Assembly: GCF_000682775.1 (NCBI RefSeq)
Contig: NZ_AWFI01000018.1
Coordinates: 62,001 to 126,000 of the forward strand
Source of the DNA: Hyphomonas sp. L-53-1-40
GTDB lineage: Bacteria > Pseudomonadota > Alphaproteobacteria > Caulobacterales > Hyphomonadaceae
DNA length: 64,000 nucleotides
Direction of reading: 5' to 3'
Part shown: in pieces, positions 41,044 through 63,859 of the stretch
Position numbering within the stretch: position 1 is the stretch's first letter
Layout: the number at the start of each line of letters is the position of its first letter
Made by a program: the position numbers and the translations under genes
The notes under the pieces: model-generated
Databases searched by the model: none
Told to the model about the DNA's origin: nothing
The model's input: the letters and a program-made list of their open reading frames with translations, nothing else

Positions 41044-42177
41044 ATGTCGACACTCCCTGAAAAAGGCCTGCAACTACGCTCGCTAATCAAGCCAGAAGGC
41101 GAACTTGAACTGTCCCTGGTTGAGGTAGACCTTCCTACGCCGGGGCCGGGCGATGTGATCATCAAGGTCGAGGCAACGCCGATCAATCCGTCCGATCTCG
41201 GCTTGCTGATTGGTGCAGGAGACATTCGCACGGCCGTGCAGACTGGCACGGCGGATCGTCCGGTCATCACGGCAAAAGTGCCCGAGGCTGGCCTGCGCGC
41301 GATGCAGGCCCGCATTGGTCAGTCACTGGGTGTCGGAAATGAAGGTGCCGGTACGGTTGTCGCCGCAGGCGAGTCCGAAGCGGCACAAGCCTTGCTCGGC
41401 AAGCGCGTTACGGGCCTTGGTGGTGAATTCTATTCCGAATACCGTATGCTGAATGTCGGTCAGGTTATGGAGTTGCCGGAAGGTGCCACGGCAGAGCAGG
41501 GTGCGTCCTGCTATGTGAATCCGCTTACGGCACTGTCTTTCGTCGAGACCATGCGCGAAATGGGTCATGAGTCCCTCGTGCATACGGCCGCTGCATCCAA
41601 CCTCGGCCAGATGTTGAACAAGATCTGTATCAAGGATGGCGTGCCGCTGGTGAACATCGTCCGCAAGGAAGAGCAGGCCGAAATCCTGCGTGGTATCGGC
41701 GCCAAACATATCGTCAATTCTACGTCGCCAACCTTTATGGAAGACCTGATCGCGGCGCTGATGGAAACAGGTGCAACGCTCGGCTTTGATGCGATTGGCG
41801 GCGGACCGCTTGCCGGACAATTGCTCATTGCGATGGAGGCGGCCGCCAGCCGCAAGATGAAAGAATACTCGCGTTATGGCTCCGGCCAGCAAACGCAGGT
41901 CTTTATCTATGGCCGGCTCGACATGTCACCGACCCAAGTGCCTCCGGGCGTAGGGTTTGCGTGGAACCTTAGCGGATATCTGCTGACGCCATTCCTGCAA
42001 AAGGCCGGCAAGGAAGTCCGCGCCCGCATGTACAAGCGTGTGATGGATGAGCTGACGACCACGTTCGCCAGCCATTACACCAAGCGCATCTCGCTCGCTG
42101 AGGCGCTTAACCTTGAAACGCTGAAAGCCTATGACGCCAAGGCGACTGGCGAGAAATACCTGATCACGCCGAACTGA
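41044..42177 (+). CDS. Zinc-binding-dehydrogenase superfamily protein (MDR)
   Basis: A 377-residue medium-chain dehydrogenase/reductase, unusual in some details. It has a GroES-like N-terminal half (LPTPGPGDVIIKVEATPINP) and a Rossmann half in which the usual AxxGxxG is replaced by VHTAAASNLGQMLNKICIKD. This is the pattern of quinone-oxidoreductase-like subfamilies. The C-terminus (FLQKAGKEVRARMYKRVMDE, then ISLAEALNLETL) is helical. Ribosome site AGAGGAAACGA. The last gene of the TetR-esterase-QOR group. Substrate unknown. Confidence 0.85.
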   Translation: MSTLPEKGLQLRSLIKPEGELELSLVEVDLPTPGPGDVIIKVEATPINPSDLGLLIGAGDIRTAVQTGTADRPVITAKVPEAGLRAMQARIGQSLGVGNEGAGTVVAAGESEAAQALLGKRVTGLGGEFYSEYRMLNVGQVMELPEGATAEQGASCYVNPLTALSFVETMREMGHESLVHTAAASNLGQMLNKICIKDGVPLVNIVRKEEQAEILRGIGAKHIVNSTSPTFMEDLIAALMETGATLGFDAIGGGPLAGQLLIAMEAAASRKMKEYSRYGSGQQTQVFIYGRLDMSPTQVPPGVGFAWNLSGYLLTPFLQKAGKEVRARMYKRVMDELTTTFASHYTKRISLAEALNLETLKAYDAKATGEKYLITPN

Positions 42178-42204
42178 TAATATCCCAATGGTTGTATAAC
42201 TCAT

Positions 42205-42242
42205 CCCCCTTTGGTAGTTTGTAATAGTATTACCAAAGGGGG
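42205..42242 (+). promoter_or_regulatory. Hairpin enclosing the ribosome binding site of the thioredoxin-like gene
   Basis: CCCCCTTTGGTA (42205-42216) and TACCAAAGGGGG (42231-42242) form a perfect 12-bp stem with a 14-base loop. The 3' arm contains AAAGGGGG, the only purine-rich Shine-Dalgarno candidate for the ATG at 42248. No U-run follows, so a Rho-independent terminator is unlikely. A translation switch (thermometer, protein- or sRNA-opened) is possible. Confidence 0.6.
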
Positions 42243-42247
42243 GTAGC

Positions 42248-43021
42248 ATGGGTCAAAGAGTCTGGGTAACTGTTGCGGTCGCACTGACAGTAGGATTTGG
42301 AACGGGTTTATATGCCGGGCCATACTTTGTCTCGTCATCTGAGACTGACGGCAATTCATTCGATCTGTCCTCCTTGCCTGACGAACTCCGGCAGAAGCAT
42401 CGCGATCCAGACTATTTGCTATCCGAGATCAAGAATTACGAGCTCATGAAGGAAGCTTTGGCTCGTCTGGAGGCTGAGCAGTCGAGTCAGGAAAGTCTTG
42501 TTCTACCAGAAGGGATGACATCGGTTCCACTTGGGCAGCTCTACCTGCCCGACGACGAGGTTCATTGGCCGGAAGACGTCAGCGGAGACGTGGGCGCAGC
42601 ACTGGACGCTGCCAAAAATGGGTGGGTCATCCTGAACTATTGGGCGAGTTGGTGCGCGCCCTGTGTACATGAGTTACCGGAAATGGGAGAGGCAGCGCCC
42701 TTGTATGCTGAGAGGGGCGTCACTCTGATTGCTGTGAATACTGACCCGACTCTGACAGATTCAAGGGAATCTATCCGCGCCCTCTTTAGTGACCGCAATG
42801 TCTATAATCTTGAGCCGCTGATTGCAGAGGGTGAGGGTCTGGAGTCACTTCTGGCTGCGAGCGGCCAATCGAAATCGAAGCTTGGTCTGCCTACAAATAT
42901 TGTGTTCGCGCCGGGCGGAATTCCCTACGCCATGTTTCAGGGCGGAGATACGAAAGCAACCGAAGTCTGGACAGCACCGGAAACTTTGGAATTCTTGGAG
43001 ATTATAGTCAGGGCAGACTAG
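42248..43021 (+). CDS. TlpA/thioredoxin-like protein, membrane anchored
   Basis: A 257-residue periplasm-facing thiol protein. Signal-anchor helix at about 5-27 (VWVTVAVALTVGFGTGLYAG), a charged helical spacer (45-85), then a thioredoxin fold with WCAPC (Trp135-Cys139) in ILNYWASWCAPCVHEL and a cis-Pro region (KLGLPTNIVFAPGG). The layout fits TlpA/ResA proteins that reduce cytochrome c or other disulfides. No cytochrome maturation genes adjoin, so the partner is unknown. Its ribosome site is inside a hairpin. Overlaps the kinase gene tail-to-tail by 4 bases. Confidence 0.87.
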   Translation: MGQRVWVTVAVALTVGFGTGLYAGPYFVSSSETDGNSFDLSSLPDELRQKHRDPDYLLSEIKNYELMKEALARLEAEQSSQESLVLPEGMTSVPLGQLYLPDDEVHWPEDVSGDVGAALDAAKNGWVILNYWASWCAPCVHELPEMGEAAPLYAERGVTLIAVNTDPTLTDSRESIRALFSDRNVYNLEPLIAEGEGLESLLAASGQSKSKLGLPTNIVFAPGGIPYAMFQGGDTKATEVWTAPETLEFLEIIVRAD

Positions 43022-43755
43022 CCGATCCTGTCATGCGTGATGCGTATGGCATGATCGGCATCTTTCAGGACGACAATGTCGGCTGTTTGCTTCAGCGGTG
43101 CGATATGGTCGCGCAAATTGGGCAGATTGATGCGGTCCCAGACGGATTTTGCAAAGTCGAGAAGCTCCGGTTCCGTCATGTGAAGAAAGTTTGCATAAAA
43201 AGAACTCGGGTCAGTCTCTGCCGCGCGCCAGAGGCGATGGAAGCGTTCCGTATACCAAGTCAGCAAGTCGTCTTCTGATGCATCAAGGTACACAAGGTAG
43301 TCCGGCTCCCGCGCAGGACGCGGAGGCGGCGACAATGGCTGGAAGCCAAGGCCTTCGAGGATCAGTATATCGGGCTGTGCAATGGTTCGCGTCATGCCCG
43401 GGTCGACGTCGTAGGTGACATGGCTATAGCCGGGAAAGTCGGCTGTGCCGGTTGAGAGGGCGGCGATTGCGTCACCCAATGCCTCGGCATTGTAAGTTTC
43501 TGGAAAGCCCTTGCGGAGTGTCAGGCCGCGTTTTTCCAGGATTGTGTTCGGATAGAGAAACCCGTCCGTCGACACGGTTTCCACCGTATGTGCCCTGGCC
43601 AGGACTGCAGCAACCTGGTTGGCCAGAGTCGTCTTGCCCGAGGCAACCGAGCCAGTCAGGCCAATGACGACGCCCTCATGGCGACCCGAAACTCCGGACA
43701 GGCGTTCCCCCAATGCGGTAATGCCGAGGGCATGTTCTTTAGATTGGGTCGTCAT
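43018..43755 (-). CDS. P-loop kinase, pantothenate-kinase/uridine-kinase type
   Basis: A 245-residue P-loop kinase. Walker A GSVASGKT at 35-42 (VIGLTGSVASGKTTLANQV), then VETVSTDGFLYPNTILEKRG, RKGFPETYNAEAL, SHVTYDVDPG and PDILILEGLGFQPL, all characteristic of the CoaA (type I pantothenate kinase) fold. At 245 residues it is shorter than CoaA (about 310), so CoaA or a related kinase remains open. The N-terminal helical cap is reduced. Downstream of the SDR gene on the same strand. Confidence 0.8.
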   Translation of the reverse strand: MTTQSKEHALGITALGERLSGVSGRHEGVVIGLTGSVASGKTTLANQVAAVLARAHTVETVSTDGFLYPNTILEKRGLTLRKGFPETYNAEALGDAIAALSTGTADFPGYSHVTYDVDPGMTRTIAQPDILILEGLGFQPLSPPPRPAREPDYLVYLDASEDDLLTWYTERFHRLWRAAETDPSSFYANFLHMTEPELLDFAKSVWDRINLPNLRDHIAPLKQTADIVVLKDADHAIRITHDRIG

Positions 43756-43831
43756 GAGGCGTGAGGCTCCGGGCGGCGATTGCGTGCCCGAAGCCTAGTG
43801 GTGCTTGCGCGACTGTCCAGCCTGAAAGGCG

Positions 43832-62812: not shown

Positions 62813-62859
62813 CCTTGTTTCCGCGCCGTCCTTCCGCCAAGGATAGGCCGGAAACAAGG
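62813..62859 (+). promoter_or_regulatory. Long hairpin touching the ribosome site of the nitronate monooxygenase gene
   Basis: CCTTGTTTCCG (62813-62823) and CGGAAACAAGG (62849-62859) are perfect 11-base arms. Inside them GCC/GGC (62825-62827 with 62846-62848) and TCCTT/AAGGA (62829-62833 with 62839-62843) add 8 pairs, so 19 pairs in 47 bases. The last four bases of the 3' arm are the AAGG of the AAGGAGG ribosome site (62856-62862), 7 bases before the ATG. No U-run follows, so it is not a normal terminator. Confidence 0.6.
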
Positions 62860-62869
62860 AGGATATGCC

Positions 62870-63859
62870 ATGAAGACTGCCATCACAGAAATGTTCGGAA
62901 TCGAGCATCCGATCATCCAGGGCGGTATGCACTATGTCGGGTTTGCCGAAATGGCTGCCGCCGTCTCGAATGCTGGCGGTCTCGGCATCATTACGGCCCT
63001 GACACAGAAAACCCCTGCAGACCTCGCGAACGAGATCGCGCGCTGTCGTGACATGACTGACAAGCCGATCGGCGTGAACCTTACGTTTCTGCCGGTCGTC
63101 AACGCACCGGACTATCCAGGCTATGTGAAAGCCATCATCGAAGGCGGTGTGAAAGTTGTTGAGACCGCCGGGAACAATCCTGTGCAGGTCCTGCCGATCC
63201 TGAAAGAGCACGGCATCAAGGTGATCCACAAATGTACCGCCGTACGCCACGCGCTGAAGGCGCAATCCATTGGCTGTGATGCGGTCTCCGTCGATGGTTT
63301 CGAGTGCGGCGGACACCCTGGCGAAGACGATATCCCGAACATGATCCTGTTGCCGCGTGCGGCGGATGAACTGGAAATTCCATTCGTTTCCTCAGGTGGT
63401 CAGGCGGATGGACGCAGCCTCGTGGCATCTCTCGCCATGGGCGCGTCGGGTATGAACATGGGCACACGCTTCATCGCGACGAAGGAAGCCCCCGTGCACC
63501 AGAATGTGAAGGATGCCATCGTTGCCGCGTCCGAACTCGATACCCGCCTTGTCATGCGTCCGCTGCGCAATACCGAGCGCGTGCTGACCAATGTTGCGGT
63601 TGAGCGCCTGTTGGAAAAAGAGCGCAAGCTGGGCGCAGACCTCAAATTCGAAGACATTATCGAAGAGGTTGCAGGCGTCTATCCGCGCATCATGAAAGAA
63701 GGCGAAATGGATGCGGGTGCCTGGTCCTGCGGCATGGTTGCCGGTCTGATTCACGACATTCCGACCTGTAAGGAACTGATCGACCGAATCATGAAAGAAG
63801 CTGAAGATATCATCACAAACCGTCTGGCAGGCATGCTGTCGGGCAAGGTTCCGGCCTGA
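62870..63859 (+). CDS. Nitronate monooxygenase family protein
   Basis: A 329-residue FMN enzyme oxidising nitronates (or a related 2-nitropropane dioxygenase/enoyl-reductase fold protein). TIM-barrel motifs: HPIIQGGMHYVGFAEMAAAV (N-terminus, FMN site), AGGLGIITALTQKT, CGGHPGEDDIPNM, and SSGGQADGRSLVASLAMGAS, then GMNMGTRFIAT. The FabK-like alternative cannot be excluded, but the length and motifs fit this family. AAGGAGG precedes the ATG at good spacing, partly within a hairpin. Followed after 22 bases by a lipoprotein gene. Confidence 0.9.
   Translation: MKTAITEMFGIEHPIIQGGMHYVGFAEMAAAVSNAGGLGIITALTQKTPADLANEIARCRDMTDKPIGVNLTFLPVVNAPDYPGYVKAIIEGGVKVVETAGNNPVQVLPILKEHGIKVIHKCTAVRHALKAQSIGCDAVSVDGFECGGHPGEDDIPNMILLPRAADELEIPFVSSGGQADGRSLVASLAMGASGMNMGTRFIATKEAPVHQNVKDAIVAASELDTRLVMRPLRNTERVLTNVAVERLLEKERKLGADLKFEDIIEEVAGVYPRIMKEGEMDAGAWSCGMVAGLIHDIPTCKELIDRIMKEAEDIITNRLAGMLSGKVPA

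Follow-up and report, generated by a model that had tools for sequence, protein, structure and literature searches.

A conserved hairpin over the Shine-Dalgarno sequence of a TlpA-like gene in Hyphomonas and its possible role in silencing read-through RNA

Background

In the fold-back inhibition of the IS10/Tn10 transposase, an inverted repeat masks the Shine-Dalgarno (SD) sequence in RNA that enters the element from outside. A related arrangement is described for late genes and homing endonucleases of phage T4 (I-TevI, segB, soc and e) and for mobE of phage Aeh1: in RNA that starts far upstream, the SD is sequestered in a stable stem, and the I-TevI RNA made from a late promoter closer to the gene is too short to fold in this way (PMC2988022). 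For the sigG gene of Bacillus subtilis, it has been proposed that a large hairpin keeps read-through RNA from being translated; this hairpin cannot form in the RNA made from the gene's own promoter (PMC5942855). Secondary structure in the 5' untranslated region is also reported to regulate expression of the ISPpu9 transposase (PMC8450116). A caution comes from the PvuII system, for which disruption of predicted hairpins at ribosome-binding sites (RBS), of -4.6 kcal/mol, is reported to have had no significant effect (PMC2997769). A search of the open-licence literature found no paper on SD-masking leaders in Hyphomonas.

Results

A perfect stem that encloses the SD

The window, i.e., the whole 64-kb stretch of DNA analysed here, contains a gene for a protein with a thioredoxin-like domain, which is referred to below as TlpA-like; its matches to the NCBIfam TlpA and ResA models score under the curated cut-offs. 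The earlier note described a perfect 12-bp hairpin in front of this gene, with the SD wholly in the 3' arm and no U-run, and the coordinates bear this description out (Table 1). RNAfold lengthens the stem to 16 bp, with a predicted free energy of -25.6 kcal/mol. The segment 42200-42247 folds with a z score of -6.3, and none of 200 dinucleotide shuffles equals its fold; for a wider piece of 121 nt around the hairpin, the z score is only -1.8 and 9 of the 200 shuffles equal it.

Table 1. Features of the hairpin locus (positions are those of the window)
Feature	Position	Strand	Basis or remark
5' arm of the stem, CCCCCTTTGGTA	42205-42216	+	stem geometry, fold, compensatory changes
Loop, 14 nt	42217-42230	+	RNAfold pairs 2 further bases on each side
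3' arm of the stem, TACCAAAGGGGG, which holds the SD	42231-42242	+	stem geometry, fold
SD, AAAGGGGG	42235-42242	+	entirely within the 3' arm; the G run extends to 42243
Outer pairs, A-U and U.G	42203-42204 with 42244 and 42243	+	both sides vary in relatives
-10-like TATAAC, immediately 5' of the stem	42195-42200	+	sequence; matching -35 not found
ATG start codon of the TlpA-like gene	42248-42250	+	
TlpA/thioredoxin-like gene (257 aa, WCAPC motif, hydrophobic N-terminus)	42248-43021	+	ORF, domain matches
Zinc-type dehydrogenase/quinone-reductase-like gene	41044-42177	+	co-directional, possible source of read-through
Kinase-like gene (PRK/uridine kinase family), convergent	43018-43755	-	bounds the gene-plus-hairpin cassette

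The stop codon of the upstream dehydrogenase gene ends 70 nt ahead of the TlpA-like start codon, and the stem begins 27 nt past this stop; the two genes are co-directional and no terminator-like site is recognised between them. The hairpin does not fit the pattern of an intrinsic terminator, a GC-rich stem followed by a U-run, and the region 42000-42400 holds no intrinsic-terminator-like site. The same region shows no sigma-70 promoter by consensus and no convincing -35 element for the TlpA-like gene. No Rfam model (riboswitch, thermometer or other known RNA) matches anywhere in the 64 kb at its gathering score, and the core palindrome has no second perfect copy elsewhere in the genome. The convergent kinase-like gene, with its start codon at 43755, carries an 11-bp stem of its own (one U.G pair) over an SD-like GGAGC at 43764-43796 on the minus strand, and this leader lies 76 nt past a co-directional gene.

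Conservation and covariation in relatives

Homologues of the TlpA-like protein are found in 10 of the 42 genomes of the genus at an E-value of 1e-20 or better. In six of these genomes (G000, G025, G031, G035, G064 and G027, with protein identities of 100, 91, 58, 55, 55 and 52%, respectively), the gene lies behind the same dehydrogenase, and all six orthologues place the SD in a strong stem. The five distinct hairpin sequences differ in their letters, with the arm pairs UCCCCCUUUGGUA/UACCAAAGGGGGG, UCACCCCUUU/AAAGGGGUGA, GUGUACCUUUCUUG/CAAGGGAGGUGCAC and AUCCCCCUUG/CAAGGGGGAU among the orthologues; the G064 hairpin is identical to that of G035 and was excluded from the covariation alignment. 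Compensatory changes in relatives had been set beforehand as a test, and they are there: across 11 pairs in the five sequences, 54 of 55 pair cells (98.2%) are paired and double changes occur in 5 of the 11 pairs. The covariation score is 0.636, with a shuffled mean of 0.266 (none of 500 shuffles reaches the observed value) and at most 0.255 for a slid alignment, although the alignment was registered by hand to the hairpin structure and is thus biased in its favour. MAFFT alignments, which shift the 3' arm of some rows by one position, were excluded from these counts; in the leaders aligned by MAFFT, the UUGGU that tops the 5' arm does not vary even where it is incompletely paired. Taken singly, the hairpins have z scores from -4.6 to -7.6. 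In G031 (locus L004, reverse strand), the inverted repeat runs 8 bases further out (TGTAATAT/ATATTACA) and reaches the start codon.

In the distant homologues from G004, G022, G020 and G011 (42-46% identity), no such stem is present and the predicted cost of opening is 0.3-6.1 kcal/mol at 37 C; for the first three of these, the SD was placed by an assumed fixed spacing. A homologous gene in Henriciella (L036/L113) has a hairpin just upstream of the SD that does not cover it. A covariance-model search over 105 genomes also gave six weak rows (E 0.0013-0.08), including a true match read on the opposite strand; they are within chance, given that about 10 matches are expected at E 0.1, and served as leads only.

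The hairpin goes with the TlpA-like gene and not with its neighbour. The dehydrogenase gene is present in all 42 genomes of the genus. Gene order was read at 30 of the 42 dehydrogenase loci (L157-L186), correctly in 29, with G005 as the exception; in 11 genomes only a few bases separate the dehydrogenase stop from the end of the convergent kinase gene, and both the TlpA-like gene and the hairpin are missing. Gene and hairpin thus occur together or not at all. Moreover, the end of the stem coincides with the SD in 6 of 6 leaders while the distance to the dehydrogenase stop varies. Preservation of the stem with compensated letters, together with its absence where the gene is absent, indicates a selected RNA structure on the mRNA strand. 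Thus, the hairpin is a real, conserved, SD-masking RNA structure under selection. The gene and its leader form a patchy cassette, present in six genomes and missing from the same site in at least 11 related ones.

Predicted access to the SD depends on where the RNA begins

For the five distinct leaders, predictions at 37 C put the cost of making six SD bases accessible at 16.8-21.4 kcal/mol. This cost falls to 10.2-17.6 kcal/mol for an RNA begun at base 1 of the 5' arm, to 3.2-7.1 at base 5 and to 1.6-4.6 at base 7; in G000 and G025, an RNA begun at base 3 still has predicted costs of 11.3 and 12.0 kcal/mol, respectively. By these predictions, an RNA that begins about five bases into the 5' arm or further downstream would escape the mask, and one begun upstream would contain both arms.

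Promoter-like sequences offer some guidance on the start, judged by the Caulobacter RpoD consensus (TTGACGS and GCTANAWC; PMC8144410). In G031, the promoter-like pair TTGTCAC-N14-GTTATATT places the expected start in the loop, and in G035 and G027 the pair TAGACAS-N11-RTTATAGT places it in the 5' arm. The promoter-like sequences of G000 and G025 are ambiguous in this respect: the -10-like TATAAC sits just ahead of the stem, and a start 6-8 nt downstream of it would keep most of the 5' arm.

Similar leaders in two lipoprotein families

SD sequences are masked by stems of differing sequence in many leaders of two further families, a beta-helix lipoprotein (TIGR03805) and a PhoD-like lipoprotein, each of which is found in 40 of the 42 genomes of the genus. 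For the beta-helix family (L126, L187-L216), 30 loci were available, of which L208 and L216, near contig ends, were left out and L190 gave no start, and 11 other matches had no locus; many of the 28 orthologues examined have an SD-masking leader. For the PhoD-like family (L139 at 4112, L217-L246), loci were obtained for 30 of the 40 matches, and 2 of the 30 have no recognisable -35. Here the masking stem occupies two different positions in different groups.

Both families have promoter-like elements with strict spacing, namely CTTGC followed by GACACT or a similar hexamer 17 nt after TTGCNN in the beta-helix leaders, and CCTTAC with CCGCTA in the PhoD-like leaders. The masking 5' arm sits between these elements in both families, except in the PhoD-like G062 group, where it directly follows the -10-like element, in the segment normally found ahead of a start. 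Given this placement in or next to the promoter-like pair, the promoter's own RNA should not form the full stem. Median opening costs for the full leader are 11.6 kcal/mol in the beta-helix family (n=27) and 11.2 in the PhoD-like family (n=30); from the inferred own start, they are 3.6 (n=27) and 2.5 (n=28), values that are low in part by construction. Both families encode exported proteins and show the layout more clearly than the TlpA-like leader does. By analogy, they suggest that a gene's own RNA starts downstream of such an arm and that only read-through RNA would fold.

The beta-helix leaders with a strong hairpin upstream of the promoter, which is often terminator-like, have weaker masks (median 10.9, n=13, vs 16.9, n=14; Mann-Whitney P=0.0005, uncorrected for kinship and with G001, probably misclassified through a missed upstream stop codon, retained). 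In 10 of the 30 PhoD-like leaders, the masking stem is weak or lost, with an opening cost of 6.0 or less, and the upstream stop, where found, is still adjacent, so that silencing is not universal. Covariation is weaker evidence in both families than in the TlpA-like leaders: the beta-helix tandem group has 2 double-change pairs (reached in 202 of 300 shuffles) and 6 double-change cells (0 of 300), the PhoD-like G000 group has 3 such pairs (13 of 300) and 7 cells (0 of 300), and the PhoD-like G062 group has a single pair (216 of 300).

Frequency of SD hairpins in the genome

The window and a further 396 kb of its genome hold 34 perfect stems of at least 10 bp with loops of at most 30 nt, and three of them touch a called gene start. 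Besides the TlpA-like hairpin, these are an 11-bp stem at 62813-62859 (CCTTGTTTCCG/CGGAAACAAGG), whose 3' arm covers only part of the SD of a gene that starts at 62870 and that we take to resemble nitronate monooxygenase, and a stem at C1:11702-11746, where the called start is probably wrong because the leader resembles coding sequence. Across 1.06 Mb of the genome, window included, hairpins that cover the SD at -20 kcal/mol or below precede 15 of 181 genes located behind co-directional neighbours; 8 shuffles average 6.8, with a maximum of 9. The excess is modest, the gene starts are those of a simple script, and terminator hairpins could inflate it. Divergent genes, which served as the control, also exceed their shuffles, but by less (13 of 217 vs a mean of 8.6, maximum 10, in 5 shuffles). 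A genome-wide trend among 367 called genes was considered and rejected (23 vs 19 hairpins at -20 kcal/mol or below, with one shuffle set). In G012 (L122, reverse strand, about 1501-1548), a 12-bp perfect stem lies over the SD of a TonB-receptor-like gene with a GTG start.

Discussion

Proposed role of the stem and alternatives

The structure, its compensated conservation, its tie to the TlpA-like gene rather than to the neighbour and the start-dependent predicted access to the SD are computed results. The most likely role of the stem, to which we assign a probability of about one half, is silencing of the TlpA-like gene in read-through RNA. RNA polymerase that runs on past the dehydrogenase gene would produce an RNA with both arms, the stem would fold before the SD becomes usable, and the TlpA-like gene would remain untranslated from this RNA; a promoter of its own, near or inside the hairpin, would yield an RNA without the 5' arm, or without its outer part, in which the SD is free. 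This scheme implies, as we infer, that read-through RNA from the dehydrogenase gene exists, that the gene's own RNA starts near or inside the hairpin and that the effect of the hairpin on translation in the cell is large; promoter-like sequences suggest such a start in G031, G035 and G027.

The main rival is repression within the gene's own mRNA, a tentative reading according to which transcription begins at the stem or before it, little or no protein is normally made, and the stem is opened by a factor acting in trans, such as a small RNA, an RNA-binding protein, a helicase or RNase cleavage within the loop. The TATAAC just 5' of the stem, with RTTATAGT at the matching place in G035 and G027, is compatible with such a start; the invariant UUGGU could be a contact site, and sigG of B. 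subtilis has a small RBS hairpin alongside the large one (PMC5942855). However, a cost of 17-21 kcal/mol would leave almost no translation without a dedicated opener, none was identified, and no Rfam family matched. The earlier proposal that the gene is translated only when the stem opens presupposes both arms in the gene's own mRNA. An RNA start inside the hairpin, which is a live possibility, would point to read-through silencing and would not make the hairpin a trivial finding.

It is improbable that the stem is a 3'-end hairpin of the dehydrogenase gene, either a terminator or a protector of the mRNA end, that overlaps the SD by chance. Its location shortly past the stop codon of that gene would suit this role, but the lack of a U-run, the absence of the hairpin from the 11 genomes without the TlpA-like gene and the registration of the stem with the SD rather than with the dehydrogenase stop all argue against it. 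Still less credible is a DNA palindrome bound by a repressor: the near-perfect dyad does overlap a possible promoter, but the arm letters change in a compensated manner, the core palindrome has no second perfect copy in the genome, and the aligned stems include six U.G wobbles and no A.C, which favours an RNA on the mRNA strand. An RNA thermometer, in which warming melts the stem, is the least probable of all: thermometers in general do have a leader hairpin whose 3' arm holds the SD, as here, but no Rfam thermometer matched, and the predicted opening cost of the five leaders falls only gradually over the growth range and is still 15.5-19.9 kcal/mol at 42 C and 13.6-17.5 at 50 C, so that the stem is not predicted to open within the growth temperature range. 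Thus, of the earlier suggestion that the SD is masked and that temperature might be the opener, the masking is supported by covariation and opening cost, and the role of temperature is not.

Read-through silencing might be an instance of something broader. It is conceivable, though we consider it doubtful, that promoter-embedded arms complementary to the SD act as a general translational insulator in Hyphomonas, for many genes behind co-directional neighbours that often encode exported proteins. Read-through RNA would then be silent and translation would proceed only from own-promoter RNA; the arm would arise anew at other positions and disappear from genes that a terminator already shields. 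If so, operon neighbours that are transcribed together could be uncoupled in translation through a short promoter-region arm, and co-expression predicted from gene order would fail for such genes. Masking elements of this kind are easy to miss, having no U-run and no Rfam match, and the gene's own mRNA may lack the hairpin altogether.

Comparison with known systems

The PvuII caution concerns RBS hairpins far weaker than the Hyphomonas stem. ISPpu9, according to its description, is additionally under the control of two small RNAs, and none was identified for the Hyphomonas leader; unlike the insertion sequence IS10/Tn10, the Hyphomonas locus shows no sign of a mobile element. The B. subtilis sigG gene is similar in being a chromosomal gene behind co-directional genes, an operon in that case, as the Hyphomonas gene is behind the dehydrogenase; it differs in encoding a developmental sigma factor of Firmicutes and in that its own mRNA carries another RBS hairpin, of 5 bp (PMC5942855). 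Like the T4 type, all five distinct Hyphomonas leaders have a stable stem whose 3' arm contains the SD, whereas the T4 cases are described as a phage timing system with tested transcripts (PMC2988022) and the Hyphomonas case is a chromosomal gene with covariation evidence and a putative start. Masking of the SD in read-through RNA is thus a known principle, described for T4 and proposed for sigG, which the TlpA-like leader of Hyphomonas probably follows.
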